Translations under genes and position numbers: made by a program
Notes under the pieces: model-generated
Told to the model about the DNA's origin: nothing
Databases searched by the model: none
What the model saw: the letters and a program-made list of their open reading frames with translations, nothing else
Assembly: GCA_016779995.1 (NCBI GenBank)
Contig: JADHMO010000003.1
Location: 1-64,000 of the forward strand
DNA length: 64,000 nucleotides
Direction of reading: 5' to 3'
Source: Flavobacteriales bacterium
GTDB taxonomy: Bacteria; Bacteroidota; Bacteroidia; Flavobacteriales; UBA7312
Shown: positions 21,432-40,800 of the stretch, piece after piece
Layout: the number at the start of each line of letters is the position of its first letter
How positions within the stretch are numbered: position 1 is the stretch's first letter

Positions 21432-21998
21432 TTATTGTCCCCATTGGTAAGAATCTTGCTCTAGTCCAGCTAAGGCAATAACTCTATCAACAACCGTAGA
21501 CGCCAATTCTTCAAAAGTAGAAGGATTGCTATAAAATGAAGGGGTAGCTGGGCAAATGATACCACCTGCTTCGGTAACGGTCTTCATATTATTGATATGA
21601 ATAAGATTTAAGGGAGTGTCCCTTGCCACTAGTATTAGTTTTCTTCTTTCTTTAAGGATAACATCGGCAGCTCGAGTAGTTAAGTCATTAGAAATGCCTT
21701 GAGCAATACGTCCTAATGTACCCATAGAACAAGGGCAAATAATCATTGTTTCAAAGCGAGCCGAACCAGATGCAAAGGGTGCGGTAAAGTCTTGTGGCTT
21801 ATAAAATTTAAAAGGTAAATCTTTATAATCGGTATTACCCAATTCTGTTTTCCAAACGTATTTTGCATTATCAGACATCAAAATACCTACTTCTTCAACT
21901 TGATTATGCAGTTGTTGTAGTCTGTCGAATAACACTTTGGCATAGATAGCACCACTAGCACCACTTACCGAAACCACTATTTTTTGTTTCTTACTCAT
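21432..21998 (-). CDS. ubiX: UbiX-family flavin prenyltransferase
   Basis: 188 residues with the UbiX/Pad1 flavoprotein fold: the N-terminal VVSVSGASGAIYA phosphate/FMN loop, CPCSMGTLGRIAQGISNDLT in the middle, and LILVARDTPLNLIHINNM. UbiX makes the prenylated FMN used by UbiD-type decarboxylases. No ubiD is in the window. Its start overlaps the end of the upstream beta-barrel gene by four bases, making it the last gene of a six-gene minus-strand run that begins at 26504. Confidence 0.95.
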   Translation of the reverse strand: MSKKQKIVVSVSGASGAIYAKVLFDRLQQLHNQVEEVGILMSDNAKYVWKTELGNTDYKDLPFKFYKPQDFTAPFASGSARFETMIICPCSMGTLGRIAQGISNDLTTRAADVILKERRKLILVARDTPLNLIHINNMKTVTEAGGIICPATPSFYSNPSTFEELASTVVDRVIALAGLEQDSYQWGQ

Positions 21999-22588
21999 TC
22001 AGAGAACAAATATCGGAAAGAAAAACTTAATATGGAATTATATTTGCCTTTGTTTAGCCCGTAGGTAGCTCCACCAGGGTGGTCTTGTATGGGAAAAAAG
22101 GGAATACTATTGCTCAATTCCCAAAACATAGTCAGTTGAGGTTTGAGTTTAACTCCTGCAGCTAATTTTGCGCCGATATCAAATTTATGGAAATCATTTT
22201 TTTGAACGTCTTCATAGCCATAGATATCGTATGTTTTGCCATCTACCAAAACACCAAATAATAGTCCTCCTTCATAAATAAATCCTTTAGATGTTTTCTG
22301 AACGCACCATGACGTTTCAATATAGGATAAATCAATCCTAAAATCGCTATTGACATCATTACTCCCTTTGTCGATATAGTACAATGCTAGCTGACCACGA
22401 CTAGCAGAATTTATAAAATGATTGACCGATGCACCAAACTTGATGCCTAATTTGTTAAAACCACCTAATTGGTCGCCAGATACTTGCGAAGTGCTAACAC
22501 CAGCAATAAGTCCTGCTTTGAAATTTTGACCATAGCAATAACTACTTATGGCAAGGGAAAAAATACATATGAAAATTAATCGTGTCAT
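21995..22588 (-). CDS. PorT-like outer membrane beta-barrel protein
   Basis: 197 residues, signal peptide MTRLIFICIFSLAISSYCYG. Mature sequence shows the barrel pattern of the PorT/outer-membrane-beta-barrel family: FKAGLIAGVSTSQVSGD, then LGIKFGASVNHFI, with a strand-like end SILSFSFRYLFSE. True PorT is a T9SS component, but this resemblance is to the broad family only. It overlaps both neighbours by four bases (22585-22588 and 21995-21998), a sign of translational coupling. Confidence 0.8.
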   Translation of the reverse strand: MTRLIFICIFSLAISSYCYGQNFKAGLIAGVSTSQVSGDQLGGFNKLGIKFGASVNHFINSASRGQLALYYIDKGSNDVNSDFRIDLSYIETSWCVQKTSKGFIYEGGLLFGVLVDGKTYDIYGYEDVQKNDFHKFDIGAKLAAGVKLKPQLTMFWELSNSIPFFPIQDHPGGATYGLNKGKYNSILSFSFRYLFSE

Positions 22589-23547
22589 CTAAAACTGATG
22601 CCAATTCCTGCCGATGTACTTGGATAGCTAGAAAAGGTCTGATTGGCATAAAGTGTAAAGATAGCAAATTGAAGTCGAACTCCTGCTGAAGCTTGCATTT
22701 CAGAAGTGTTTGACATATTAATTTCTAAGGGGAAATCAAAATTTAAAGTACTTGTGCTGCCTAGACTAAAGTTAGTATTGGCATTAAGTGTAGAGCTTAC
22801 AAAATTTTGACCTAAACTAGCGTAAGCAGTTATCATGGCAAACTTTTTTGAAAAGATAAGATTGACTGTACTTGCTCGTATGTCTAAATCTACTCCTTGT
22901 CTAACGCTTTGACTTTCTATTTCAAAGGAGGTGTTGAATTGACTAAAAGCACCTTGAACCGATAAGTCGAAGGGTAAAAATTTATTTAAAGGCAACCATT
23001 GCAAAACATCGTGTTTTATTCCAGCACCGTAAAGTTCTACAGACCCTTTACCTACAAAGCCAATATCGTACTCATAAGTCGGAATATATCTTACATTGAT
23101 TTCAGTTCCTTTTATTAAGCCTAGTCCTACATTTAAAGTTGGAATTGGTACAGCTTTTATTTCAATATTTTGGTCAGGCATTACAAATTGACCGTTTACA
23201 TTTCCGTTTTGATAATTTATAATTGCACCTTCTCCACTCCCCATGATACTTGGAGTTGATGAAGAAGTACTGCTAAAGTTTTCTATACTATTGACATCAA
23301 ATGAAGCTACTTCATCTGATATAGTAATTAAGTTTAGACTTAGACTAACATCAAAACCAGCCAATTTATGAGGCTTTGCTGTATTATACCAACCTTTGTT
23401 TAGGCCAGCTCCAATAGATTCAGCAAAGGGAGAGAAATAGGCTCCCAAAAAATTAGTAGCATCTGAAGTGTTACTAACAGTAATGTTCTGAGCTGAAACA
23501 AAAAGCGAAGAACAAACTAGGAATAAAAAGGTTAAGATTTTTGTCAT
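22585..23547 (-). CDS. Outer membrane beta-barrel protein (DUF6588-like)
   Basis: 320 residues with signal peptide (MTKILTFLFLVCSSLFVSAQ). Near the N-terminus, YFSPFAESIGAGLNKGWYNT followed by KPHKLAGFDVSLSLNLI resembles the family I know as DUF6588, long-chain-type outer membrane barrels with amphipathic strands to the end (GIGISFR). Substrate unknown. It is 12 bases downstream of the Omp28-like lipoprotein gene and four-base coupled to the next barrel. Confidence 0.72.
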   Translation of the reverse strand: MTKILTFLFLVCSSLFVSAQNITVSNTSDATNFLGAYFSPFAESIGAGLNKGWYNTAKPHKLAGFDVSLSLNLITISDEVASFDVNSIENFSSTSSSTPSIMGSGEGAIINYQNGNVNGQFVMPDQNIEIKAVPIPTLNVGLGLIKGTEINVRYIPTYEYDIGFVGKGSVELYGAGIKHDVLQWLPLNKFLPFDLSVQGAFSQFNTSFEIESQSVRQGVDLDIRASTVNLIFSKKFAMITAYASLGQNFVSSTLNANTNFSLGSTSTLNFDFPLEINMSNTSEMQASAGVRLQFAIFTLYANQTFSSYPSTSAGIGISFR

Positions 23548-23559
23548 TGTAAATAGTAA

Positions 23560-24348
23560 TTAATCCGTAAGGTGTATTTTTTCGACTTGCAAAACTTCTT
23601 TATTGCTATTGTCGTATACGAAAGCCACTATATTGCAGTTACTTCTTACCCATGAATTTTCTAAAGTATAGTCATAGCTATATGTGCTTGAAGTACTACT
23701 CAATTGTATATTACTCCCCCAAGCTCCATTGATTACTTTTCTAAGTACATGATTATGTTCATACTCTTCAATTAAGTCTGAGCCATATATTTGTTTGTCA
23801 ATAATACCATCTTCAGTAATACATACCACTAATTTCAGACTATTATTAGCCTCTGTAAGTCGTCTTGCTTGAACACTAACGGAATTATTTTCTTCAGAAA
23901 TTGAGAGTTCAATAGTTGGTGCTTGTAGTAATTGTTCTCCAGCTTGACTAGCCCAATCGGTATAATTTAACAGAACATTATCAGGATATCCTTGTCTATT
24001 GACCATACCTATTGGAAAGCCTTCGGGGCCGAAAAAATCTGTAATTTCATTACCTTCATCTGTTCTAAAGTCTGTTACAAAAACACCACCTGGCTTTGCA
24101 AAAGTACCAGAATGAATGGCTATGCCGATTACTTTGTCAGGATAAAGTTCTTCAATCTTGTGTAGTTCAGAAGATGCGTCTGGACAATTAGTACACTTGT
24201 AGCCTGTGAAATCTTCAATTAGCACCTTTTTACCTAGCCAAGGAAAACCAGCGTTAGGATCTGTAAAATTATCTTTTTCGATGACATCACATGAAAAAGT
24301 TAAACTAAGTATAAATAAACTAAGAAATAAATAATAGGTCTTTTTCAT
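23560..24348 (-). CDS. Omp28-related lipoprotein with CxxC
   Basis: 262 residues. The signal ends in a lipobox (LTFSC, Cys20). The motif VLIEDFTGYKCTNCPDASS with Cys52 and Cys55 identifies the Omp28 family, whose fold is thioredoxin-like, and it is followed by residues handling peptides of the form GFPIGMVNR. It probably sits on the outer membrane and may act in thiol-disulfide chemistry; that activity is inferred from the CxxC and the nearby TlpA gene. It is one of five thioredoxin-fold or Omp28 genes between 23.5 and 31 kb. Confidence 0.82.
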   Translation of the reverse strand: MKKTYYLFLSLFILSLTFSCDVIEKDNFTDPNAGFPWLGKKVLIEDFTGYKCTNCPDASSELHKIEELYPDKVIGIAIHSGTFAKPGGVFVTDFRTDEGNEITDFFGPEGFPIGMVNRQGYPDNVLLNYTDWASQAGEQLLQAPTIELSISEENNSVSVQARRLTEANNSLKLVVCITEDGIIDKQIYGSDLIEEYEHNHVLRKVINGAWGSNIQLSSTSSTYSYDYTLENSWVRSNCNIVAFVYDNSNKEVLQVEKIHLTD

Positions 24349-24350
24349 AA

Positions 24351-26009
24351 TTAAAAGCTTGAAGTTATATTAAGAGTAAATCCATTAGATGATGGTACAT
24401 TACGGCAGACACCACCTACACAAAAAATACCCTCTCGGACCTTACCATATCCTAATTCAAAACGGTTTGTTCCTTTGCTGTAGCCACAACTGATATTGAG
24501 GTAATGTACAGCCTCATAGGTTTTGCCTTCGCTAGTATAGCCGCCATTATATTGATCTACAAAAGCAAAAAACCAATGTGGAGAAAAGGTATATTCTACC
24601 AACCCCATTACCCAATCGCCTTGATCTTTGTAGTATTCTTCACTCTTATCAACTGAAAGGTATTGAAATTCACTTCTTAAAGTGTGTTTAGGTTTTATTT
24701 TGTAATTAACCTCTGCTATTCCAATTCTAGCATGTACGTTTTTGCCAATAATTTTCCCTTCTATGACATCTTTATTGTAAATAACATCTAAGTAGTTCAG
24801 CATAACCTTGACCTTTTTACTAACTTTCTTTTTTAGGTCGAAGTTTAAATCTCTAAAATAGAGTTCTTCATTAATAACACTAAAAAACATGGGGGTATGG
24901 TCTCTGTTTATGGTTAACTCTGAAGGGCCGCCATTGAGTCCATTAATTCTTGAATAATTGACAGCAACTTGTGTGCCATATTTACCACCTAATTTACTTT
25001 TCTTTTTAAAAGTATAGTTGATTTCCCCTTGAAACCCTAATTCTCCTAAAGGCTGAGTAGCAAAAGGGTAGAATGCAGCCAAGGTGTAAGCGTGTTGTTT
25101 ACTTATGGCTGGAATGTAATTTAAAGTGAGTTCTTTTCCTGTACCACCTCTTTTAGAACGGTAATCCATATTGTCAACTCTATGTGCTTCTAACATTATA
25201 CCCAAGCCTCTTTGAGAATAAGAAAGGTTAGTCATTAAGGCACTTCCTGGAGCAAAATTATTATAGGTTATACCACCTGCCGGATCATTATATTTATAGG
25301 CGTATTCTGTATTAAAAGAAATTTTACCTCTGTTAACGGTAGAACGAATAGCATAAGCAGCTACGTTTTCAGGCAAATTAAATACAGGATTGTTATCATC
25401 TTGAAAACGACTCACAAAACTACCTCCGATTATAGCATTTGTCTTGCTGCTTTCTAAAGAAGATATAGCTTCATTCAGGTTTAAGTCAGCATCGAACCCT
25501 CTTATAATACCCGGGCCTTGTTCCCAAAATAAACGTTGAGTAGCAACAAACCCTTTAAGTGATAATCCTTTTAGTGGACTATACTTTAAACGAACACCAT
25601 CCATAACATTGTCGATGCCTAGTGTTTTTTCTTCGTAGCTTCTAAAGATAAGACCATTTCCAAATTGTTCGTAAAAGTTACCTACTGTTATATCTAAGCC
25701 ATTAACATTATACTGAGCAAATCGATAGGGTATGCCATTGCCATTAAAGTTTGATTCAAAACCTTGCAAAACGTTTAAATAACTTTCGAAACGTACACCG
25801 GCTGTAAAGTTGCCTTTGTTATATCGAATATTAGAATAAGCATTCATGAGTATAAACTCATCAACCTTTTCAGCGTTTATGGCAGGGTCTTCGTAATAAC
25901 TCTGGGTGCTTAGATTAAAATCACCCTGAATAGTACCGTTAGAATTATCTTGTGCCCAAGTTATAAACGAAAAAAAACTACAGGTAATAATAATAGTGAG
26001 TCTTTTCAT
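24351..26009 (-). CDS. Outer membrane protein, DUF6029-like
   Basis: 552 residues with signal peptide (MKRLTIIITCSFFSFITWAQ). The mature region is a large beta-barrel: it begins NGTIQGDFNLSTQSYYED and continues with alternating amphipathic strands such as FTAGVRFESYLNVLQGF and ends in TLNITSSF. It resembles DUF6029 proteins of Bacteroidota. It is two bases upstream of the Omp28-like lipoprotein and three bases downstream of the TlpA-like gene, so the barrel and the two redox-type proteins are likely co-expressed. Confidence 0.75.
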   Translation of the reverse strand: MKRLTIIITCSFFSFITWAQDNSNGTIQGDFNLSTQSYYEDPAINAEKVDEFILMNAYSNIRYNKGNFTAGVRFESYLNVLQGFESNFNGNGIPYRFAQYNVNGLDITVGNFYEQFGNGLIFRSYEEKTLGIDNVMDGVRLKYSPLKGLSLKGFVATQRLFWEQGPGIIRGFDADLNLNEAISSLESSKTNAIIGGSFVSRFQDDNNPVFNLPENVAAYAIRSTVNRGKISFNTEYAYKYNDPAGGITYNNFAPGSALMTNLSYSQRGLGIMLEAHRVDNMDYRSKRGGTGKELTLNYIPAISKQHAYTLAAFYPFATQPLGELGFQGEINYTFKKKSKLGGKYGTQVAVNYSRINGLNGGPSELTINRDHTPMFFSVINEELYFRDLNFDLKKKVSKKVKVMLNYLDVIYNKDVIEGKIIGKNVHARIGIAEVNYKIKPKHTLRSEFQYLSVDKSEEYYKDQGDWVMGLVEYTFSPHWFFAFVDQYNGGYTSEGKTYEAVHYLNISCGYSKGTNRFELGYGKVREGIFCVGGVCRNVPSSNGFTLNITSSF

Positions 26010-26012
26010 AAT

Positions 26013-26504
26013 TTATTTTGATAAGGCTTCTATTTTTTTGAATAAATCAAATTCGTCACCATCTTTATAACCAGTATGTTGATAAACGATTTCTTTATTT
26101 TCATTAAGTAAAAAAGTGTGTGGCACTGAGCCAACACCCATAGCTCTTTTGAGTTCGCCATTAGGGTCGCAATACACTTCGTAATCCCATAACAAGGCAT
26201 TTACTTTAGGTTTTACTTTGCTCATATTTCTAGCATCATCAATAGAAATAGCAATGACTTTAACACCTGTTTCGTCTTGCCAATCTTCATAAACTTCGGC
26301 AATATTGTTTAACTCTTTAATACAAGGTTTGCACCAAGTTGCCCAAAAGCTAATAACAATAGGTTTGCCATCATTATCGAAATCAGAAGTGTTAAAAGTA
26401 TTATTGTCAAGTGTTTTCAAGTCTACTTTTGGCAAAGTTCTATTTTGAGAAAAAGAGAGTAAACTGAAAGATAAAAAAGCGGTAAAAATCAATAATTTTT
26501 TCAT
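26013..26504 (-). CDS. TlpA-family thiol-disulfide oxidoreductase
   Basis: 163 residues with a signal peptide (to SFSQ at ~20) and a thioredoxin fold. The active site is FWATWCKPC with Cys58 and Cys61, and the cis-Pro lies in GSVPHTFLL. Proteins of this family reduce or exchange disulfides in the periplasm. It is first in a tight minus-strand run (TlpA, barrel, Omp28, two barrels, UbiX). A hairpin terminator lies just upstream and no TAnnTTTG box is seen between them, so expression may depend on readthrough. Confidence 0.9.
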   Translation of the reverse strand: MKKLLIFTAFLSFSLLSFSQNRTLPKVDLKTLDNNTFNTSDFDNDGKPIVISFWATWCKPCIKELNNIAEVYEDWQDETGVKVIAISIDDARNMSKVKPKVNALLWDYEVYCDPNGELKRAMGVGSVPHTFLLNENKEIVYQHTGYKDGDEFDLFKKIEALSK

Positions 26505-26528
26505 AGTATTTTTTAGTTTTTAAGCATT

Positions 26529-26574
26529 AAAAAAAGGCCAGTAAATTAGTTAGGCTAATCTACTGACCTTTTTT
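26529..26574 (-). terminator. Long hairpin terminator between the T9SS thioredoxin gene and tlpA-like gene
   Basis: Twenty-base arms pair almost perfectly around TTAGG; in the minus-strand RNA the two non-Watson-Crick positions become G-U pairs. A T-run follows on the minus strand. It closes the gene at 26594-28144 and may set the level of readthrough into the six-gene run below. Confidence 0.82.
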
Positions 26575-26593
26575 GTTTTGAGCAAATTATCCT

Positions 26594-28144
26594 TTATCTA
26601 GTAACTGTGATTTTTATTGTACTTGTTTCACCATTTGAAGTAAGGTGAGCAAAATAAATACCACTCGTTAAACTACTAACGTCTAAATCCAAAGAATTAT
26701 TTCCTGCATTTAAACTAAATGTTCTAGTAAGGTTGATTTCTCCAAGTATATTAACAACATCTAGCCTCAAATCTGAACTTTCAGAAAGGTTAACATTTAT
26801 TGTCGCCTTAGAGTTCATAGGGTTTGGATAGATAACAAAACCAAAGTTGTCATTTTCATCAATTGAAGATGTTCCAGCTTCAGTATTTTCAAAATAAGTA
26901 TCGTCTTCATTTTCAAAATTCTGAACGGTTTGTTGACTAATGATGATACCGTTGTTGTCTTCAATAGACCAATCTCCATCAATACCACCGTTAGTGTTAG
27001 TTGAAGCTGCTAAGCCATCACCATAATAATCAGTAATTTCAAATTTAAAACAGCCTATTGTTGGAAGTGTAACATCCCACGAATAAAGTTGATTGTTTCC
27101 TAATGGATTAGTTGCATCTGCAGGTGCTAATTGACCAGTTCCAGATATTCCAGCAGTAGCCTCATTTCCTTCAAACCAGATAATGTTATTGTTTTCGTCA
27201 GTGATTTGCATATAAGTTTCGTTACCATAGTTGTCTGTAAGTAGGTTGACTTTAACCATCTGAGAAGACTGACCAGTTGAAAAATTAACAGTATGAGACA
27301 TAGAGTTGTCATTGTCATTATCATCAGTAGAAGTAATATTTACTTCAATTGTTTCTGTCTCAACAGTAATATTTCCAAAATTGATAGTCGTTGTTTCGTA
27401 AGTATCAAGGTTTCCGTCAAAATCGTCTGATGCAATAGTCTGTCCGTTAGCACTTACTTCAACACTAAATGAAGTTAGGGTATTTGTTCCCATATTTTGA
27501 ACAACAACTGAGAAATTTCCTGATGCACTTGATTCACATCCGTTAGGAAGAATATCAGTATCAATATTTAACAAGGCAGCGTTTGTTCCTTCAGTTTCTG
27601 TAGGACAGTTTGCAATGCCGTTATAGTGTGCTGATGCTGATAATTGACCAGACACAGTAAGGGTTCTATTAGGACAAATAGTGTAAATAATTGGCCAGTA
27701 AGGTAGTTGGTACAAGTCGGCAATGTTGTCATCATTACTAATTGGGAAATTTACTTCATTTCCATCTGGTGCTAACCAGTTTCCAAGGTTGCTATTTTCC
27801 AATTCACTAAGTGCAGTAGTGGGATCTCCTTCAAACCATAAAATCATTATGTCATCCGTTGTGTTTGCACTAACGCCTGGTTCTCCAACAGGTCCGTGAG
27901 CTTCCCAAATTTCTTCGAATGTACCGCCTGAGTGGTAGTTCCAGCAAGGACCACACCAAGTTGCACTAATGTCTAGAATTACTGTGTATCCGTTGTCTAA
28001 GTAGTCATATAGTCTGTGTTCATTTCCATTGACGTCTGTAGTTGTAAAGTCAGGAGCAATCGAGCCATCAGGAAGTTGAGCCGATGCAAGGAATGAAGTC
28101 GATAAGAATAAAACTATAAATAGGTTTTTGATAAAGTTAGTCAT
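26594..28144 (-). CDS. Secreted TlpA-like protein with T9SS sorting domain (copy 1)
   Basis: 516 residues. A signal peptide (to SAQ at 23) is followed by a TlpA/thioredoxin domain starting LPDGSIAPDFTTTDVNG, with the active site ATWCGPCWNYH (Cys64, Cys67). A central beta-rich region (~190-290) and a module with VNLLTDNYGNETYMQI precede the C-terminal T9SS sorting domain (VIYPNPMNSKA ... GIYFAHL ... IKITVTR). It is thus a thiol-type protein sent outside the cell. It is paralogous to the gene at 28333. Own promoter boxes lie upstream. Confidence 0.92.
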   Translation of the reverse strand: MTNFIKNLFIVLFLSTSFLASAQLPDGSIAPDFTTTDVNGNEHRLYDYLDNGYTVILDISATWCGPCWNYHSGGTFEEIWEAHGPVGEPGVSANTTDDIMILWFEGDPTTALSELENSNLGNWLAPDGNEVNFPISNDDNIADLYQLPYWPIIYTICPNRTLTVSGQLSASAHYNGIANCPTETEGTNAALLNIDTDILPNGCESSASGNFSVVVQNMGTNTLTSFSVEVSANGQTIASDDFDGNLDTYETTTINFGNITVETETIEVNITSTDDNDNDNSMSHTVNFSTGQSSQMVKVNLLTDNYGNETYMQITDENNNIIWFEGNEATAGISGTGQLAPADATNPLGNNQLYSWDVTLPTIGCFKFEITDYYGDGLAASTNTNGGIDGDWSIEDNNGIIISQQTVQNFENEDDTYFENTEAGTSSIDENDNFGFVIYPNPMNSKATINVNLSESSDLRLDVVNILGEINLTRTFSLNAGNNSLDLDVSSLTSGIYFAHLTSNGETSTIKITVTR

Positions 28145-28168
28145 AAATGTATTGTTTTGTTAGGTTCA

Positions 28169-28186
28169 CAAATTTAAGCAAATTTA
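28169..28186 (-). promoter_or_regulatory. Tandem -7 boxes (two TAAATTTG) for the 28144 gene
   Basis: On the minus strand two TAAATTTG boxes, ten bases apart (28179-28186 and 28169-28176), precede the start at 28144 by 25-35 bases. A third copy is at 28252-28259. All fit TAnnTTTG. The region is very AT-rich, so chance matches are possible. Confidence 0.45.
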
Positions 28187-28283
28187 AATTTAATTATGTA
28201 ATTCCCTTATTATTTTTATTCTAAACTGCAGTTTTGCTTTAAGGTTGATTACAAATTTATGTTAAAACTAGAGTTATTGACAA

Positions 28284-28308
28284 AAAAAATAGCCCGAAGG
28301 CTATTTTT
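28284..28308 (-). terminator. Intrinsic terminator with UUCG tetraloop
   Basis: On the minus strand AAAAATAGCC and GGCTATTTTT flank TTCG, giving a C(UUCG)G tetraloop stem followed by a T-run. It closes the operon 30956-28333. Confidence 0.88.
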
Positions 28309-28332
28309 AAAAATTGATTTTTTAATCTGATA

Positions 28333-29847
28333 TTATTCTATTTTTAAGATATTTTGAGACTGAACGAACGATTTAGATTCAATGCTTACAGTATAAATAC
28401 CTCTTACAAGTTCAGCACAATTTATGTTGACTGTATTAGAGCCTTTAATTAGATCTACATCATTTAATTCAAGAATTTTTGATCCTAATACATTATAGAT
28501 CGAAATTTGTGCGTTTTCAACAAATTCATTTGAGCTAATAGTGAGTTCAGATTGATTATACACTGGGTTTGGAAAAACTCCAAACTCAATGGAAGAATTT
28601 TCTTTCATATTTAGCCCATTACCATCTGAGGTTATTGCAAAAATTGTTTTAACATCAGTGCCAAAATTTGGTTTAGTCAGTTCACTAATTATGTCAGTAC
28701 TAACAAGATTATGACCTGTTACAGCATATCCAGATTGAACTGTTGCATCTGACAAACCATCGCCATAACTATCTAAAATATTTAGTTCATAACATTTTGT
28801 ACCCTCTGGAAGTGCCACATAATACTCGAATGATTTATTAGCGTCTTCGCCTCCAGATCCATTGGAGCCTGGTCCTGCTTGGTAAGGGCCAAAGCTTTTT
28901 AAAGTATTCCCATCACTATCTTTTAGGTTCCAAGAAGTTTCTCCAGGGTAATTGTCTGTTACAATTGTAATTTTAATGGTGTTTTCTGTTTCAGATGGAG
29001 CAAGTTCAATTTCCAAGCTTGACTCATTACCATCACTAAAAGTATCTGTATTATTATTGACGGTCACTAATCGTGCAGTATAGGAGCTATTACCAGTAAT
29101 GTTACTTATGGTATTAAACTCAACACTTCCTTTAGCTAGTGATGTTAAGTTACCGCTCCAATCCGTTGAGTCTATGGCGTTATCATTTTCATATAGCTTA
29201 ACTTTTGCACTTGTCAAATTGTTAGTTCCAAAGTTAATGATTTCTACTGAAGGCGTTACATCTTCTCCAGAAAGACAAACTTTCTGAATATTGTCATGTA
29301 AAGCGGCGTTATTAGATGTGCCCTGAATACTATTTCCGCACTTTTCTTCAAAAAGGGCCTTTAATTGAGCTGGAGTTTTTTGTCCAAATTGATAGATTTT
29401 TTTATCGGGACAAATACCATAGATTGTAGGGTAATATTGGATTTGAAATGTAGTTGAAAGAGAGGCGTTGTCAATTATTGGGTATGGCGTTCCCGTAATC
29501 CAATCGCCTGTAGTGTTAGAGCCAGTTCCTTGTAAGTCAGCTAAGGATGTGTTGGACGCTCCTTCTATAAGTATTACCATAAGTTCATTACTAGCATCTG
29601 GTCCATACATATTATAAAGATTTTTTAAAGCGTGTGATTCATGGTAAGACCAACACGGACCGCACCAAGTTGCTGAGATATCGATGAGAACTGGAATGCC
29701 TTTGTCTAAATAGTCGGCAAAAAGAGAATGGCTGTTGCCATTGATGTCGTCTGCTGTAAAGTCTGGGGCAGTACTGCCATCAGCCATTTGAGCATTTGCT
29801 TGTGTAAAAAACACAAAACATAAGGGTAAGAGTAGTAGATTTTTCAT
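28333..29847 (-). CDS. Secreted TlpA-like protein with T9SS sorting domain (copy 2)
   Basis: 504 residues, same build as the gene at 26594: signal peptide to NAQ (~19), thioredoxin domain beginning MADGSTAPDFTADDINGNS, active site SATWCGPCWSYHE (Cys62, Cys65), beta-rich middle, then a T9SS tail (GVFPNPVYNQS ... GIYTVSIES). The middle segment VTDNYPGETSWNLKD parallels VNLLTDNYGNETYMQI of copy 1. The two genes look like an old tandem duplication. It follows the Omp28-T9SS gene by 14 bases. Confidence 0.92.
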   Translation of the reverse strand: MKNLLLLPLCFVFFTQANAQMADGSTAPDFTADDINGNSHSLFADYLDKGIPVLIDISATWCGPCWSYHESHALKNLYNMYGPDASNELMVILIEGASNTSLADLQGTGSNTTGDWITGTPYPIIDNASLSTTFQIQYYPTIYGICPDKKIYQFGQKTPAQLKALFEEKCGNSIQGTSNNAALHDNIQKVCLSGEDVTPSVEIINFGTNNLTSAKVKLYENDNAIDSTDWSGNLTSLAKGSVEFNTISNITGNSSYTARLVTVNNNTDTFSDGNESSLEIELAPSETENTIKITIVTDNYPGETSWNLKDSDGNTLKSFGPYQAGPGSNGSGGEDANKSFEYYVALPEGTKCYELNILDSYGDGLSDATVQSGYAVTGHNLVSTDIISELTKPNFGTDVKTIFAITSDGNGLNMKENSSIEFGVFPNPVYNQSELTISSNEFVENAQISIYNVLGSKILELNDVDLIKGSNTVNINCAELVRGIYTVSIESKSFVQSQNILKIE

Positions 29848-29861
29848 TTCATTTAAGGGTT

Positions 29862-30956
29862 TTATCTAACAATTATTTTATGTGTTGAAGATTGATTTCC
29901 ATTTTGTAGTTCTAAGAAATAAATTCCACCAACAAAGTCAGAAATATCGACTTGTAGTTTGCTATGACCTGCTGAGAAAGTTTTTTGTTGTGACATTACA
30001 TTTTGACCTAAAAGGTTGTATAGTTTAAAGCTTATGTTACTAACTTTTCTTATCTCAAATTCAACGTTTACTTTATCAATTGCTGGGTTAGGATAAATAT
30101 CAATCGATTCTATTGAATTAGTAGCTTCAGTTATACTAGTTGCAGAACCCATCTTCGGCTTCATATGAGTAGTATTCAATACTTCTTGCCTATCTTCAGT
30201 TACAAAAACAGCGATATCTAAATCCTCTAGTTTTAAATCAACACCTTGAATGTTCTCAGGTAGATTATAAAAAACTTGCTTATAAACCAGTGTTCCAGCT
30301 GAAATGGAATCTATTTTTTCACCCCATTGACCTGTTGGCAAGTGCCTTAGAATATGTTTATGCTTATATTCTGCGTCAGAACCATCAGCAGGGTTGAAAC
30401 TACTTGCTCCAGATTGACTTCCAATGATATCGTCTTGTAAAACAGCAACATTGAGTCTGTTAAAATCAACATCTTGATCTTCGTTATAAAATACTTCTAC
30501 TTCAACATATAGTTTACGTGTTGCCGTATCCACTACAGCATTCATGCCGATGTTTAGAACAGCTTGTTCTAATAAAACATCGCTTGACACAGAAGCCCAG
30601 GCATTTCTTCCCATAGACATCGCGCTACCACTAAATACGTGTCTATTTATAGTTCCTGTTGGGTAGCCTGATATTCCAGATTGACCTGCTAGAGCTGAGC
30701 CAAAATCTGTGTTTAAGTTCGGATAACTAGTAGGGGCGTATCCTCCTGTATGAACTCTTATTAGTACAATATCATTAGGATTTGCTACTTTAATATCATT
30801 AGCTATTTTATGTCCATCGGGGCAATATGGACAAAGACGACCAGTATATTCTTCGAGTAACACATTTTTATTTTCTACTTGAGTAGTATCTACAAGGTTC
30901 TGAGCGTTCAAAGAAAAGCTAACAATTGTAGCAATGAGAAGTAATTTTTTTTTCAT
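29862..30956 (-). CDS. Omp28-family protein with T9SS sorting domain
   Basis: 364 residues. Signal peptide (to NAQ at 19), then the Omp28 motif VLLEEYTGRLCPYCPDGHK with Cys42 and Cys45, and a T9SS sorting domain at the end (IYPNPAIDKV ... GIYFLELQNG). Related to the lipoprotein at 23560, but surface-secreted rather than lipid-anchored. It heads a two-gene operon with the TlpA-like copy 2. The 218-base upstream intergenic region, shared with a divergent T9SS gene, shows no minus-strand TAnnTTTG. Confidence 0.88.
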   Translation of the reverse strand: MKKKLLLIATIVSFSLNAQNLVDTTQVENKNVLLEEYTGRLCPYCPDGHKIANDIKVANPNDIVLIRVHTGGYAPTSYPNLNTDFGSALAGQSGISGYPTGTINRHVFSGSAMSMGRNAWASVSSDVLLEQAVLNIGMNAVVDTATRKLYVEVEVFYNEDQDVDFNRLNVAVLQDDIIGSQSGASSFNPADGSDAEYKHKHILRHLPTGQWGEKIDSISAGTLVYKQVFYNLPENIQGVDLKLEDLDIAVFVTEDRQEVLNTTHMKPKMGSATSITEATNSIESIDIYPNPAIDKVNVEFEIRKVSNISFKLYNLLGQNVMSQQKTFSAGHSKLQVDISDFVGGIYFLELQNGNQSSTHKIIVR

Positions 30957-31136
30957 AATTTTTAAGTTTAGAGTTATTAATCAATTAAACCACAACATAT
31001 CACTTATTAAGGGACTGCTAAATTAATGAAAAGTTGCCTCTTTAGAAAAGGTAAAACTAGAGTCTTAGCATTTTCTTACGTCTTCAATTGTGTTTTTTGG
31101 CAGGTATAATAGCGAACTAGTTTAGTATGTTTTTAC

Positions 31137-31144
31137 TATATTTG
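31137..31144 (+). promoter_or_regulatory. -7 box (TATATTTG) for the 31175 gene
   Basis: TATATTTG matches TAnnTTTG, 30 bases before the ATG at 31175. No convincing -33 TTTG is seen 19-21 bases upstream. Confidence 0.5.
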
Positions 31145-31174
31145 TAATGAATAAATTAAACACACAGATTTAAT

Positions 31175-31885
31175 ATGAAAAATTTACTATTAATATCGGC
31201 TGTTTTGGTCTCTTTATCAGCTTTTTCACAGAGTATTAGTGTTGAGGCTCACACAACAGAGGTTGACCCTACTTGTTGTACGACTCTAATTGGAGATATA
31301 GGAACTGAAATAACTGTTAGGAACACAACAAATTCATCAATAGAAATTAGTGTTTCTAGACAAACGCTCAATCAAACATTGGGAACAGAAAATTATTTTT
31401 GTTGGACATCGTGTTACGGTTCGCAAACCAGTGTTTCTCCTCAATCTAAACTCTTTTCTCCGCAAGAAGTGGATCAGAATAGTTTTCAGGTACATTACGA
31501 CAACAAAGGTTATACACCAGCCTCTGCTTCGGTAAAGTATTGCGCCTTTGTTACTTCAAACCCTTCTGACTCGGCATGTACTATTGTTAATTATACTGTA
31601 GGTATTACTTCTGTTGAAGACAATTTTAGTACTGTTTCTTTTTCAGAATTTCACCCAAACCCTACGTCTTCGATAGCTTTTTTAGATTATAATCTAGATT
31701 ATTCTGATGTGGCTGAAATTGTTGTAACTGACATGCTTGGAAATGTGATTCGTAAAGAAAATATTAGCAGCCAAAGTGGCACTCTAAAATTTGATGTTAG
31801 TAATACCAAAGCGGGTTTATATTTTGCAAACATCTCAGTTAATGGAGAGTTAAAAACAATAAAGCGTTTAGTTGTTAGCAAATAA
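31175..31885 (+). CDS. Secreted Cys-containing protein with T9SS sorting domain
   Basis: 236 residues. Signal peptide (to FSQS ~20), a compact ~130-residue domain with six cysteines (a CC pair at 34-35, CWTSC, and two more at about 125-140), then a T9SS tail (FHPNPTSS ... GLYFANISVNG). I do not recognise the N-terminal domain; the even Cys number suggests disulfides. It diverges from the Omp28/TlpA T9SS operon, so a structural-disulfide client of those proteins is possible but only inferred. A strong terminator follows. Confidence 0.85.
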   Translation: MKNLLLISAVLVSLSAFSQSISVEAHTTEVDPTCCTTLIGDIGTEITVRNTTNSSIEISVSRQTLNQTLGTENYFCWTSCYGSQTSVSPQSKLFSPQEVDQNSFQVHYDNKGYTPASASVKYCAFVTSNPSDSACTIVNYTVGITSVEDNFSTVSFSEFHPNPTSSIAFLDYNLDYSDVAEIVVTDMLGNVIRKENISSQSGTLKFDVSNTKAGLYFANISVNGELKTIKRLVVSK

Positions 31886-34844: not shown

Positions 34845-37800
34845 GTGTTTCAAAATAAGGCAATACATAAACAAGCACTTTGGTGCTTTTTCTTGTTTTT
34901 AGTGCTGAGTAAATTTTCATATTCTCAGTCCACTAATGATAGCCTAATTTATCAGATACCAGAAAATAATCCTTGGGATAATCCACTAGATAATCCAAAT
35001 AGCGGTTTTTACCTAAACCCTCCCTCTAACCTGCAGCCTCAATTAGAGTACGACCCTGAGTCAAAACTGTATAGTGTAGAGCAAAAAATAAATGGTTTTA
35101 GACTTTCAAACCCTACATTTCTGAGTGCCGAAGAATACGATAATTACAATTCTAGACAATCTATATCAGACTATTGGAAAGAAAAAACTTCAAACCCCTC
35201 GCTTAGTGGAGATAACACCAATAAAGGCCCTTTGAGTATAGACATAGGAGGAGAAATTTTTGATAAAATATTTGGAAATAGTACGGTAGATATTAGACCC
35301 CAGGGCTCAGCAGAACTGATATTTTCTATTAAGCACAACAAGACCGAAAATAATGCTCTGCCAATAGATAAACAAAGCAACACCAGCTTTGACTTCAAAC
35401 AAAAAATACAAATGAATGTCATCGGTAAAATTGGCGACAAACTCCAACTAAATACCAATTATAATACTGAAGCAATTTTTGATTTTGACAACAAGATTAA
35501 GCTGGAATACGAAGGTGAAGAAGATGAAATAATAAAGAAAATCGAAATTGGAAATGTAGGCTTACCTCTCAACGGTACTTTAATCTCTGGAAGTCAAAGT
35601 TTATTAGGTTTAAAAACACAACTGCAATTTGGTAGAGCAACAGTAACTACTATTTTTTCTCAACAAAAAAGTAATTCTAAAGTAATTGATGTTGAAGGGG
35701 GTGCACAAACCACAGAGTTTGATATCTATGCCGATCAATACGAAACCAACAAACACTTTTTTCTATCTCATTACTTTAAGTCAAGGTATAATGAGGCTAT
35801 GTCACAACTACCTTTTATCAATTCGCCAGTAAATATTACAAAAATTGAGGTTTGGGTAACCAACAAAACAGGAACTGTAGAAGACACTAGAAATATTTTA
35901 GCCTTTTTGGACTTAGGAGAGTCTCAGTCCGATATGTATAACACGGTTTTATTTTCTGATAATGCTGACTTTTCCTATCCCGACAATGATAACAATACTC
36001 TTTATCAACAGATGCTCTCTGAAGGTGAGGCGTTGAGAAATATAAATCAAGTGAATAGCATATTTGGTACAGCTTCTTATCCTGACTTTTTAGGTTCGCA
36101 AGATTATGAAAAGTTAGAAAGAGCAAGATTATTGTCACCGACTGAATATACATTTCATCCCCAATTGGGTTATATATCATTAAACAACATCATTGGGCCT
36201 GATGAGGTTTTAGCTGTAGCTTTTCAATATACCATAGGAAATGAACTTTATCAAGTGGGTGAGTTTAGCTCAAATGGACCGTCAGCACCAAGCTCATTAT
36301 TTGTTAAACTATTGAAAAATTTGAGTTTTTCTCCACAACTGCCTAACTGGGACTTGATGATGAAAAACATATATTCTTTAGGTGCATACAACGTTAGCCC
36401 TACAGAATTTTATTTAGATGTAGTTTTTGAAAATACTAGGGATAATGGTACAATTACGAACTATATTCCTGAAGAAAATCTAACAAATAAACCCATAATC
36501 AATCTTTTACGATTGGATCAATTAAATGCTCAGCAGGAGCGCAAGGCCGATGGTATTTTTGATTTCTTACCTGGCATTACAATCATTACCTCAAATGGTA
36601 AAATTATTTTTCCAGTAAGAGAACCTTTTGGTGAAGATTTAAGAGATAAATTTAGCAACAATGACATTGCAAACAATTACGTTTATGATGTCCTTTACGA
36701 TTCTACTTTAACCATTGCTCAGCAATTTCCAGAATACAACAAATTCAGAATAAAGGGAAGTTATCAATCTGAGTCGGGAGCTGAAATTTATCTGGGAGTT
36801 TTTTCCATAGAACCAGGCTCAGTAGTAGTAACGGCTGGGGGTTTGCGACTTGAAGAAGGACAAGACTTTACCGTCAATTATTCTATGGGAAAAGTTAATA
36901 TCATCAATGACGGTATATTGATGTCAGGAACTCCCATTAGAATTTCTGTTGAAAGTAACACCTTTGGCTTACAACAAAAAACACTAGTAGGTACTCATGT
37001 AGATTATCGTATTTCTGATGACTTTATGCTTGGGGGTACTATTCTAAACCTGACCGAAAAACCCTATACCAAAAAGGTGAATTCTGGCGACGAGCCTATC
37101 TCAAATACCATATGGGGCTTAGATGGTACATATAGACGAGAATCTAACTTATTGACCAAAATTGTAGATTTTTTACCACTATTAGAAACCAAAGAAAAGT
37201 CTATGCTTACTGCTCAAGGTGAGTTTGCTCATCTCATACCCGGTCATCAAAGAGCGATTGGTGAAAATGGAACAGCCTATATTGATGACTTTGAAGCTAG
37301 TAGCACAGGAATAGATATAAAAAATCCTGGGGCTTGGTTTTTAGCTAGTTTGCCCAACGACCCTGATTTATTCCCTGAGTCTGCATTACCTAATCAAAGT
37401 CCTAGACTTGGAAACTTAAACTCAGGAGCAAATAGAGCATTATTATCTTGGTATAATATTGACCCAGTATTTTACAGAAATACCAATAATACCCCAAGAC
37501 ATATAGCTGACGATGAGGTACAACTATCAAACCACAATGTAAGAGAAGTACTTGAAAAGGAAGTATTCCCCAATCGTGACCCCCAGTATGCTACTCAAGT
37601 ATCTAATTTGCCAGTTTTTAACCTTTCCTATAATCCATCTAAAAGAGGACCTTATAATTTTGACACTGAAAATATTACCACCTCAGGATTATTACTAAAC
37701 CCCGAAAATAGGTGGGCTGGAATTATGCGTAAGCTAGAAACAACAGACTTCGAATTGCAAAATATTGAGTTTGTTGAGTTTTGGATAATGGACCCTTTTA

Positions 37801-40800
37801 ATGACGATTCTGAAAACCAAAGTGGTGGTAACTTGATTATGAATTTGGGTAATGTTTCAGAAGACGTTTTAAAAGATGGGTTTAAGAGTTTTGAAAATGG
37901 ATTGCCTTCTTCAGATGTTGTAGAAAATGTTGACGATGAAAGTAGTGTATGGGGGCGTATGCCTACTACTTTTGCTTTAACAAACTCCTTTGATGTAAAT
38001 GCAGAGTCACGTCAATATCAAGATGTGGGGCTTGATGGCCTTAGGGATGTTGATGAGCGTACATTTTTTGATACGGCTTATGTTCAAAAAATAGAATCCA
38101 TTTATGGAGTCAATAGTAATGCTTATTCCTTAGCATCGACAGACCCTTCTTCTGACAACTACACTTATTTTTTAGGTAATGATTTGGACAATGAAAGTGC
38201 TTCTATTTTAAAGCGTTATGAGTATTTTTCTGGAATAGATGGTAATTCAGCAATTCCAGACCCTACACCAACTATGGCTACTACTATTCCAAACACAGAG
38301 GATATAAATTTTGACAATACACTCAACGAATCAGAGAGTTATTACCACTACAATATCCCCCTATTCCCTGGTATGCAAATTGGCGATAGTTACATTACCG
38401 ATATACAAGAAACGGAGGCTAAAACACCAACTGGGGATAGAACAATAAAGTGGTATCAGTTTAAAATCCCAGTCCAACAGCCTGACAAAACAGTAGGTTC
38501 TATTCGTGACTTTAAATCCATACGATTTATTCGTATGCTACTCAAAGACTTTGACCAACCTATCGTAATGCGTTTTGCAACATTAGAGCTCGTTCGTGGC
38601 GAATGGAGACGTTATAATTTTAGTCTAAAAACAGAAGGAGAATATGTTCCAAATGATAATGCTAGTAATACTTCATTTGATGTTTCTGTAGTAAACATAG
38701 AAGAGAATGCTGAAAAAATTCCTGTGCCTTATGTCTTGCCTCCTGGTATAGAGCAAGAACTTGATAACACTACGACCTATGTTAGAAGGCAAAACGAACA
38801 ATCTTTAGTCCTTAAAGTATGTGATTTGGAAGATGGAGATTCTAGAGCTGCGTATAAAACCTTCAACAACGACTTTAGAACATACAAGCGACTAAAAATG
38901 TACGTGCACGCAGAAGCATCTGGTGAAATAGAGTCAGCTCTTCAAGACGGTGACTTATCACTATTTGTTCGATTAGGTACAGACTTTAACGACAATTATT
39001 ATGAGTATGAAATTCCACTCAAGGTTACTCCATGGGGTGTTTCTAGACTTGATGATCAACTTATATGGCCAGTAGAGAATGAGTTAAATATTACATTCGA
39101 ACAACTGCTCGATGCCAAGCAAGAAAGAAACAAAGCCATAAGGGACGGAATACACACCAGTAGCACTGATCCTTTTTCAGGAACAGACAAACAAATAACT
39201 ATTGTTGGTAACCCTAATATTAGTATGGTAAAAACCATTATGTTGGGAGTAAGAAATCCAAGAAAAGGGAGTTTTACTTCCACTGTCAATGATGATGGCT
39301 CTTCCAAATGTGGAGAGATTTGGTTAAACGAATTGCGTCTAACGGACTTTGACGAACGAGGTGGATATGCCGCCAATGGTCGTATAAATGCTAGGTTGGC
39401 TGATTTTGCTAATATTAATCTTACTGGAAGTATGAGTACTATCGGTTTTGGTTCTATTGATCAAAGTCTTACAGCCAGACAAAAGTACGATGCATACCAA
39501 TACGATTTTTCATCAACTTTTGCCTTAGGAAATTTCTTCGGAGAAAAAGCAGCTATTAAAATACCTATGTATGTTGGCGTTTCTGAAGCTATTCAAAACC
39601 CACAGTACAACCCATTAGATCCAGACATCACTTTAAAGGCATCTTTAGATGAATTACAATCCAATGAAGAGAAAGAAGAACTGAAAGAGATAGCACAAGA
39701 CTTAACAAAAAGAAAGTCAATTAACTTTACTAATGTTAGAAAAAACAAATCTTCTTCCTCGGGTAATAATGCTAAGATTTATGATATAGAAAACCTGTCA
39801 GCAACCTATTCGAGAAATGAAACTTTTTCTAGAAATGTTAATCTTAAAGAAAGAACAACAGTTAGTACGAAAGCTTCTCTAAATTATACTTATTCTTCAA
39901 AGCCCAAAAACATAAAGCCATTTCAAAAAGTAAAGTTATTTAAGAACAAGTATTTTGCATTATTGAAAGACTTTAACTTTTACACCTTACCAAAATCAAT
40001 ATCATTTCAAACAGATTTGGATAGATACTATAATAAAACACAATTTAGAAACATCAACAATCCTGATTTCACTTTACCGCCATACTACAACAAGGCATTT
40101 GTTTGGAATAGAAATTATAGCATTAAGTACGATTTGACACGTACACTAAAAACAGAATTTAAGGTAAATAATTCGGCTAGTATTGACGAGCCCGATGGTG
40201 AGCTAGTAAAAACAGATCCATATTTTCAAGAAAAGAAAGACTCAGTATGGAATAATATTCTAAATTTTGGAAGACCGACTTTGTATCATCATTCATTAAA
40301 TGCGAGTTATAATGTTCCTTTGAATAAGTTCCCCCTAACTTCTTGGATAAATCTGAACACTAAATATGTAGCCAATTACGATTGGTTAGCAGCACCATTA
40401 AGTTTACAAAGTTTGGGTAATACCATTCAAAATAGTAATAACAAACAAATTAACTCAACATTTAATTTTGGTCAGCTATATAATAAAGTACCTTTCCTTA
40501 AAAAGTTAAATCAAACTGGCCCTAGTGTAGGTGTAAGAGGTAGAGGTTCAAGCAGAGAAACGATTCGATTGCCCAATGAAGCCCCCGATACCGTAAAAGT
40601 TTCTTTTAAAGAGATTGCAAATACACTTTTAAGAACAACTTTATTAGTCAAAAACTTATCGATTTCTTATCGACAAAATCAGGGCGTTGTATTACCAGGC
40701 TTTAATAAAAAGCCTCATTTCTTCGGTCAAGATTGGGATGCTATGGCTCCAGGAATACCTTTTGCTTTGGGAAGTCAAAATATTGACATTAGAGAGCTAA

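Follow-up and report, generated by a model that had tools for sequence, protein, structure and literature searches.

The 64,000 nucleotides that make up the window (positions 1 to 64,000 of contig JADHMO010000003.1, here C3, of the Flavobacteriales bacterium assembly GCA_016779995.1) are part of a 1.96 Mb genome assembled to 97% completeness. On their minus strand, between 30956 and 21432, lies a tight series of genes built around a predicted outer-membrane barrel of the DUF6029 family. In order of the series, an Omp28 protein tailed for the type IX secretion system (T9SS) is followed by two T9SS-tailed TlpA-like proteins, a TlpA, the DUF6029 barrel, an Omp28 lipoprotein, a DUF6588 protein, a small barrel-like protein and a UbiX-like flavoprotein (Table 1). 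An earlier note, made from the letters alone, had recognised here five thioredoxin-fold or Omp28 proteins within 8 kb, with T9SS tails on the two TlpA-like proteins, on one Omp28 protein and on the product of the divergent gene at 31175. All these reading frames are in place, with the profile scores tabulated, and the TIGR04183 C-terminal sorting domain exceeds its cut-off of 23 in all four tailed products, marking them as type A T9SS cargo. The note regarded the outer membrane barrels as merely interleaved with the thioredoxins. We find instead that DUF6029, with its invariant pair of cysteines, is the central component, and our best explanation for the locus, to which we give slightly less than an even chance, is a thiol-disulfide relay across the outer membrane, running from DsbD through TlpA and DUF6029 to surface proteins.

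Table 1. Features of the DUF6029 locus, in window coordinates. Pfam and NCBIfam cut-offs in bits: PF11551 34.9; NF033782 150; AhpC-TSA 26; TIGR04183 23; PF19494 27.
Feature	Position	Strand	Evidence
Omp28 with T9SS tail, CPYC (C42, C45)	29862..30956	-	PF11551 72 bits, TIGR04183 54.5 bits
TlpA-like with T9SS tail, CGPC (C62, C65)	28333..29847	-	TIGR04183 32.5 bits
TlpA-like with T9SS tail, CGPC (C64, C67)	26594..28144	-	TIGR04183 42.6 bits
TlpA-like periplasmic thioredoxin, CKPC (C58, C61)	26013..26504	-	PF00578 80.2 bits
DUF6029 outer-membrane barrel, 552 amino acids, module core	24351..26009	-	PF19494 589.5 bits
DUF6029, predicted last extracellular loop, residues 525-540, C530/C535 (CVGGVC)	24390..24437	-	conservation and AlphaFold2 (AF2) model
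Omp28 lipoprotein, lipid Cys C20, CTNC (C52, C55)	23560..24348	-	NF033782 190 bits, PF11551 106 bits
DUF6588 protein	22585..23547	-	PF20230 252 bits
small outer-membrane beta-barrel-like protein	21995..22588	-	PF13568 20.4 bits, under cut-off 27
small Ig-like T9SS protein, C-x3/4-C (C76, C80)	31175..31885	+	TIGR04183 38.1 bits
sprA, T9SS translocon gene	34845-41990	+	SprA_N match at C3 38079-39647

How general is this arrangement? A DUF6029 profile search returned a match in 80 of 296 Bacteroidota genomes, about a quarter (78 above cut-off), distributed over 56 of 140 genera, and 34 matches among 60 relatives searched in addition. Neighbourhoods were examined at 100 places from the two profile lists, at 80 loci from a contig search and at 29 short loci. 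The contig-search loci were found through patterns that include the cysteine motif, and they enter the neighbourhood counts and not the counts of cysteine conservation. The first 60 loci, together with the window, supplied the profiles by which neighbours were labelled. Barrel counts refer to 204 distinct barrels of at least 450 amino acids, with an incomplete one of 372 (L060) dropped and ten loci with too short a flank left out of the upstream count; a match under the Pfam cut-off and devoid of the motif (L201, E 6e-7) is left out of the family, its genome, G227, being among the 80.

On the upstream side of 194 barrels, a TlpA gene lies on the same strand in 151 cases, divergently in 19 and fused to the barrel in 2, with none within 1.2 kb in 22. 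TlpA is thus directly upstream, divergent or fused at 172 of 194 barrels, against 12 of 1288 background genes more than three genes away. Nearly all the upstream TlpAs (151 of 152) match the window TlpA best among the fetched paralogs of their own genome, by a median margin of 107 bits; 10 of the 30 remaining TlpAs at these loci do so. By this comparison the upstream TlpA is one dedicated ortholog. Its CxxC is kept in 50 of 50 aligned sequences, and the site reads CxPC in 152 of 153, a type of site that we take to be reducing. The window TlpA has the AhpC-TSA fold with CKPC and a hydrophobic N-terminus, recognised by eye only, and scores below the thresholds of the named ResA, DsbE and TlpA models (80.7 against 170, 56.5 against 123 and 41.5 against 230, respectively). 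A single reading frame encodes TlpA together with DUF6029 in two congeneric species (667 amino acids in G292, locus L041; 678 in G363, locus L217), and both fusions exceed the Pfam cut-offs for DUF6029 and AhpC-TSA. The TlpA part of the L041 fusion spans residues 23-157, with 43% identity to the window TlpA, and the barrel part starts at 163, which corresponds in the alignment to residue 21, the mature start, of the barrel in the window, with no second signal peptide in between. The N-terminus of known outer-membrane barrels is periplasmic, and with a linker of some five residues the fused TlpA would therefore sit at the periplasmic mouth of the barrel.

The barrel itself carries a nearly exceptionless pair of cysteines. 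Among 127 distinct barrels found without use of the motif, whose BLAST identity to that of the window falls as low as 21%, 126 have Cx4C within their last 45 residues, in variants that include CVGGVC (45), CTGGVC (21) and CTSGIC (16). The sole exception (L059), kept in the denominators, looks frameshifted, its C-terminal part being listed as a second piece. Further cysteines beyond residue 30 are missing from 144 of 202 barrels; the window barrel has one, C508. In the AF2 model, C530 and C535 fall in short strands (527-531 and 534-538) linked by Gly-Gly and, judging from the pairing of residues, should face each other across the hairpin. Short and long loops alternate, and this, together with the C-terminal Phe, indicates that the hairpin is the last extracellular loop, which would put the cysteine pair on the outer side of the membrane. 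It is also the most conserved long loop, scoring 0.86 where strands reach 0.61, outer loops 0.61 and inner turns 0.57 (a single inner turn, two residues long, is at 0.88), in an alignment (A3) whose loci came partly via the motif. A diverse alignment (A1) contains 12 invariant positions, none of them His or Met.

The family profile PF19494 spans residues 1-552 of the protein on profile positions 1-538, and DUF6029 is the sole Pfam match at E<0.1, no usher or plug domain appearing in the scan. The AF2 model, computed from 66 sequences (pLDDT 90.1, pTM 0.85), has about 24 long strands as counted from the strand list. Its best match in the PDB by VIA-align is the FimD pore (Z 17.9, 379 residues, root-mean-square deviation (rmsd) 4.4), and the PapC pore also ranks high (Z 17.2, 374 residues, rmsd 4.7). 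Ushers have 24 strands and let folded subunits through. The barrel predicted here is of usher size, with a lumen that would in principle be wide enough for a thioredoxin domain. The likeness in overall fold comes with about 10% identity. That DUF6029 might belong to the beta-barrel assembly machinery (BAM) of Bacteroidota was considered and dropped: the components named in the accessible part of one account are BamA, BamD and BamG-K, and that part has no mention of Omp28, disulfides or thioredoxins (PMC12578637).

Downstream of DUF6029, 139 of 167 loci have a thioredoxin-fold gene, mostly Omp28, on the same strand. In 177 loci with duplicate barrels removed (a step that hardly changed the figures), T9SS-tailed thioredoxins or Omp28 proteins make up 102 of the 1297 genes lying within four genes of DUF6029 and none of the 686 lying more than five genes away, and the family of the small cysteine protein 82 of 1297 against 2 of 686. 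Other T9SS cargo is found at 29 of 1297 near and 13 of 686 far positions, so cargo as such is not enriched near DUF6029. At none of the 14 loci of one sampled family (f24) do the 16 kb fetched contain an Omp28 gene; what comes after TlpA and DUF6029 there is a T9SS-tailed thioredoxin, often preceded by a thioredoxin-like lipoprotein, both mostly with CPHC. Omp28 is replaced by thioredoxins in this family, and the type of partner is therefore kept while the protein changes. TlpA, DUF6029 and Omp28 constitute a dedicated module across Bacteroidota, and their coupling is well supported on comparative grounds.

The cysteines of these partners are conserved as well. C20, C52 and C55 of the Omp28 lipoprotein are kept in 42 of 42 sequences, and the Omp28 CxxC is retained by alignment in 42/42 and 27/27 and by a looser pattern in 70/70 T9SS-tailed and 132/135 untailed proteins. 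The earlier note had proposed that a thiol system extends from the periplasm to the cell surface; with neighbourhood and CxxC sites both conserved rather than scattered among relatives, this proposal has become more likely and is borne out in part. The thioredoxin parts of the two tailed TlpA-like proteins score slightly under their Pfam cut-offs (22.9 against 26 for the 26594 product and 22.4 against 23.5 for the 28333 product), with CGPC in both, and tailed proteins of the T9A/T9B type keep a CxxC in their first 130 residues in 27 of 34 cases. These two proteins of some 500 amino acids are the most variable part of the cluster. The note thought surface redox proteins with CGPC unusual, but surface thioredoxins with a T9SS tail have a precedent in Porphyromonas gingivalis HBP35 (PG0616), a T9SS-exported surface thioredoxin that, according to the accessible part of its description, reduces insulin via CxxC in vitro (PMC2907840). 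HBP35 resembles the proteins described here in being a surface thioredoxin with a T9SS tail. The hbp35 gene was dropped as a candidate for the same locus on annotation, no sequence comparison being made: PG0615, its neighbour, is listed as TypA in the part of the source available (PMC10101095), which makes the hbp35 surroundings look unlike the module.

In common with the known Omp28 family, the window has membership in the family of the solved structure 2r2c (E 4e-16) and the lipoprotein form. Against the NCBIfam model 'Omp28-related selenoprotein' the 23560 and 29862 products reach a weak 60 and 36 bits (cut-off 200), which hints that selenocysteine may serve in the active site of Omp28 elsewhere. 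A third Omp28 domain of the same genome occurs off the cluster in an exported-looking protein of 683 amino acids with CGPC (L253 910-2961, C5).

The divergent 31175 product was described in the note as a six-cysteine protein, and it does have six in the window, but only C76 and C80 are invariant in its family (42/42 in alignment A4), at a spacing of 3 or 4 residues in most relatives. C123 is present in 15/42 and C135 in 18/42, while C34 and C35 occur in 1/42 each, namely in the window itself. The AF2 model (pLDDT 87.1, pTM 0.57) shows a beta sandwich and a tail domain and matches tandem Ig-like proteins at low TM. Members of the family contain an Ig-like domain and, as a rule, a T9SS tail, which the relatives L088 and L089 lack. 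At one locus (L169 10560-12779) three CxxxC Ig-like T9SS proteins stand in tandem next to the module. PorA was dropped as a possible relative of this protein without sequence comparison, its homologs being reported only in Porphyromonas in the accessible part of the source (PMC7712824).

What could connect these proteins? The genome encodes a DsbD-like protein of 662 amino acids (DsbD_TM 96.8 bits, CVNC), while Pfam recognises neither DsbA nor DsbB nor VKOR in the assembly, at its 97% completeness; the only recognised electron route into the periplasm is therefore reductive. In the relay that we favour, the inner-membrane DsbD-like protein would reduce periplasmic TlpA at its CKPC site, and TlpA would dock to the barrel at its periplasmic mouth or within it and exchange electrons with C530/C535, the only conserved cysteine pair of DUF6029. 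The pair would in turn pass electrons to the CxxC and CxxxC partners outside, that is, the Omp28 lipoprotein, the T9SS-exported Omp28 and thioredoxins and the small Ig-like protein. In this way the relay would set the thiol state of proteins at the surface. The direction from DsbD via TlpA and C530/C535 to the outer proteins is proposed because the recognised route is reductive and the TlpA sites are CxPC. The gene set, the orthology of TlpA, the cysteine conservation, the fusion and the T9SS tails come from the comparison of loci, and from them we infer the physical transfer of electrons, its outward reductive direction and its final substrates. A more specific version of the relay has DUF6029 as a thiol conduit, with TlpA entering the 24-strand lumen as a redox plug and the C530/C535 hairpin feeding the surface thioredoxins. 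We consider it doubtful; if true, it would mean a powered reducing cell surface in Bacteroidota for T9SS-exported proteins.

Several observations weigh against the relay. Its weakest link is the access of periplasmic TlpA to the outer hairpin: with the pair predicted outside, TlpA could reach it only via the lumen or by loop movement, and an usher-sized lumen would make passage possible. The OccK3 porin ties the ushers in Z (17.4), albeit over 321 residues at rmsd 6.6. A structural disulfide would be conserved just as the cysteine pair is, and the pair is still kept at the 22 loci with no TlpA within 1.2 kb upstream. The partners are not constant either, for 28 of 167 loci have no downstream thioredoxin-fold gene, 3 of 135 Omp28 proteins and 7 of 34 T9SS-tailed thioredoxins are without CxxC, and the surface partners vary by lineage ("22 of 34 or more") and are not one fixed protein. 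The Omp28 lipoprotein may even face the periplasm, because its N-terminus differs from the published surface-export signal (LES), which is of the C-x-K-(D/E)2 or S-D-D type in the accessible part of the source (PMC5080379). Among 73 Omp28 lipoproteins recognised by a simple lipobox pattern, D/E occupies position +2 in 92%, +4 in 0% and +5 in 66%, and the consensus from the lipid cysteine is C-D-x-I-(D/E)-x-P-Y, unlike that of 90 other putative lipoproteins at the same loci. As to the connection with secretion, SprA is present in 79 of the 80 DUF6029 genomes compared with 148 of 216 others (Fisher p 7e-10 with phylogeny ignored, and with the doubtful match of G227 included), an association confounded by phylogeny, and one genome with no SprA match (G230) retains DUF6029 and Omp28. 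At its locus (L055) the barrel has CSGGVC, the Omp28 protein is 689 amino acids long with CINC, and there is no adjacent TlpA.

The main rival to the relay is a dedicated redox chaperone. DUF6029 would then be a large transporter or secretion pore of an ordinary kind, whose last loop holds a single structural disulfide that TlpA makes or repairs, and the Omp28 and T9SS-tailed proteins would be co-regulated surface thioredoxins. This accounts for the invariant pair, the TlpA linkage and the N-terminal fusion, and a genome in which Pfam recognises none of DsbA, DsbB and VKOR might need such a helper. By itself, however, it leaves unexplained why T9SS-tailed thioredoxins, Omp28 proteins and CxxxC Ig-like proteins cluster at the barrel when other T9SS cargo is not enriched, and why family f24 exchanges Omp28 for other thioredoxins, and the presumably reducing type of the TlpA sites also speaks against it. 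We regard it as unlikely overall; it would still constitute an unrecognised pairing of TlpA with a barrel.

A pore for a metal, heme or small thiol, with the cysteine pair and the CxxC proteins binding and releasing the compound that crosses the barrel, is a decidedly improbable alternative. It could draw on HBP35, which is reported in the accessible part of its description to bind hemin (PMC2907840), and on the copper transporter OprC, which Foldseek ranks high alongside other TonB-dependent receptors. The invariant positions of the A1 alignment nevertheless offer no His or Met, Pfam finds no plug domain, and OprC is not among the best 50 VIA-align matches listed, which leaves a likeness to OprC possible. 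Export of polysaccharide or another polymer, suggested in passing for DUF6029 on the basis of an HHpred likeness to plug-less Wzi-type barrels and, in the accessible part of that paper, the one open-access source found to mention the family, with no experiment on it (PMC9603273), seems to us very improbable: AlgE does match the model at Z 14.6, but it ranks under the ushers and Occ porins, and what is conserved around DUF6029 is thioredoxins. That independent surface thioredoxins came together loosely or by chance is hardly credible, since the differences between relatives in the two 500-residue tailed thioredoxins, which could suggest it, are set against the near and far counts, the TlpA orthology and the fusion, all of which contradict it.

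Known systems supply parallels for parts of the proposed relay. From inner-membrane DsbD or ScsB, thiols are transferred in the periplasm to proteins such as TlpA, CcmG and DsbC, and the relay would likewise hand cysteine-borne electrons from DsbD to a soluble TlpA-like thioredoxin. To our knowledge, thiol relays end in the periplasm, as those of DsbD and ScsB do; here, a barrel with an invariant cysteine pair and surface thioredoxins are linked to it. Conduits of the MtrCAB type consist of a periplasmic carrier, a sheath barrel and a partner at the outer surface, and the layout of carrier, barrel and surface partner would be analogous, with thiols in place of hemes. No sequence relation to them was seen and the multiheme motif CxxCH is absent from the nine products of 21995-31885; the Mtr complex barrel 6r2q_B is among the Foldseek matches of DUF6029. 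Omp28, for which our search of open-access literature listed no redox role, differs from the family as known in being tied to TlpA and DUF6029 and in its conserved CxxC. That search, which left preprints and most subscription journals outside its range, showed no description of a TlpA-DUF6029-Omp28 module among the papers listed (10 of 2,716 in one case); open-access papers combining TlpA with type IX secretion, thiols and the outer membrane were not found, and Omp28 with type IX secretion and thioredoxin led only to work on P. gingivalis and smooth muscle cells, as far as the accessible text of that work goes. If true, the relay suggests an undescribed passage of thiol electrons through the outer membrane and bears on how Gram-negative bacteria control disulfides beyond it. 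The module would give Omp28, DUF6029 and the CxxxC Ig-like protein a testable shared function and link redox control to the surface served by type IX secretion.

The remaining genes of the series are less constant. DUF6588 is a lineage-specific addition downstream, joining the module in some relatives only (within four genes of DUF6029 in 9 of 80 contig-search loci), and so is the small barrel-like protein encoded at 21995, whose type is found within the same distance in 27 of 80. Past the divergent 31175 gene come a malic-enzyme-like gene and ruvA, both named by eye, and then sprA, three genes off the cluster; ruvA, and often the malic-enzyme-like gene too, flanks the module in a number of other loci.

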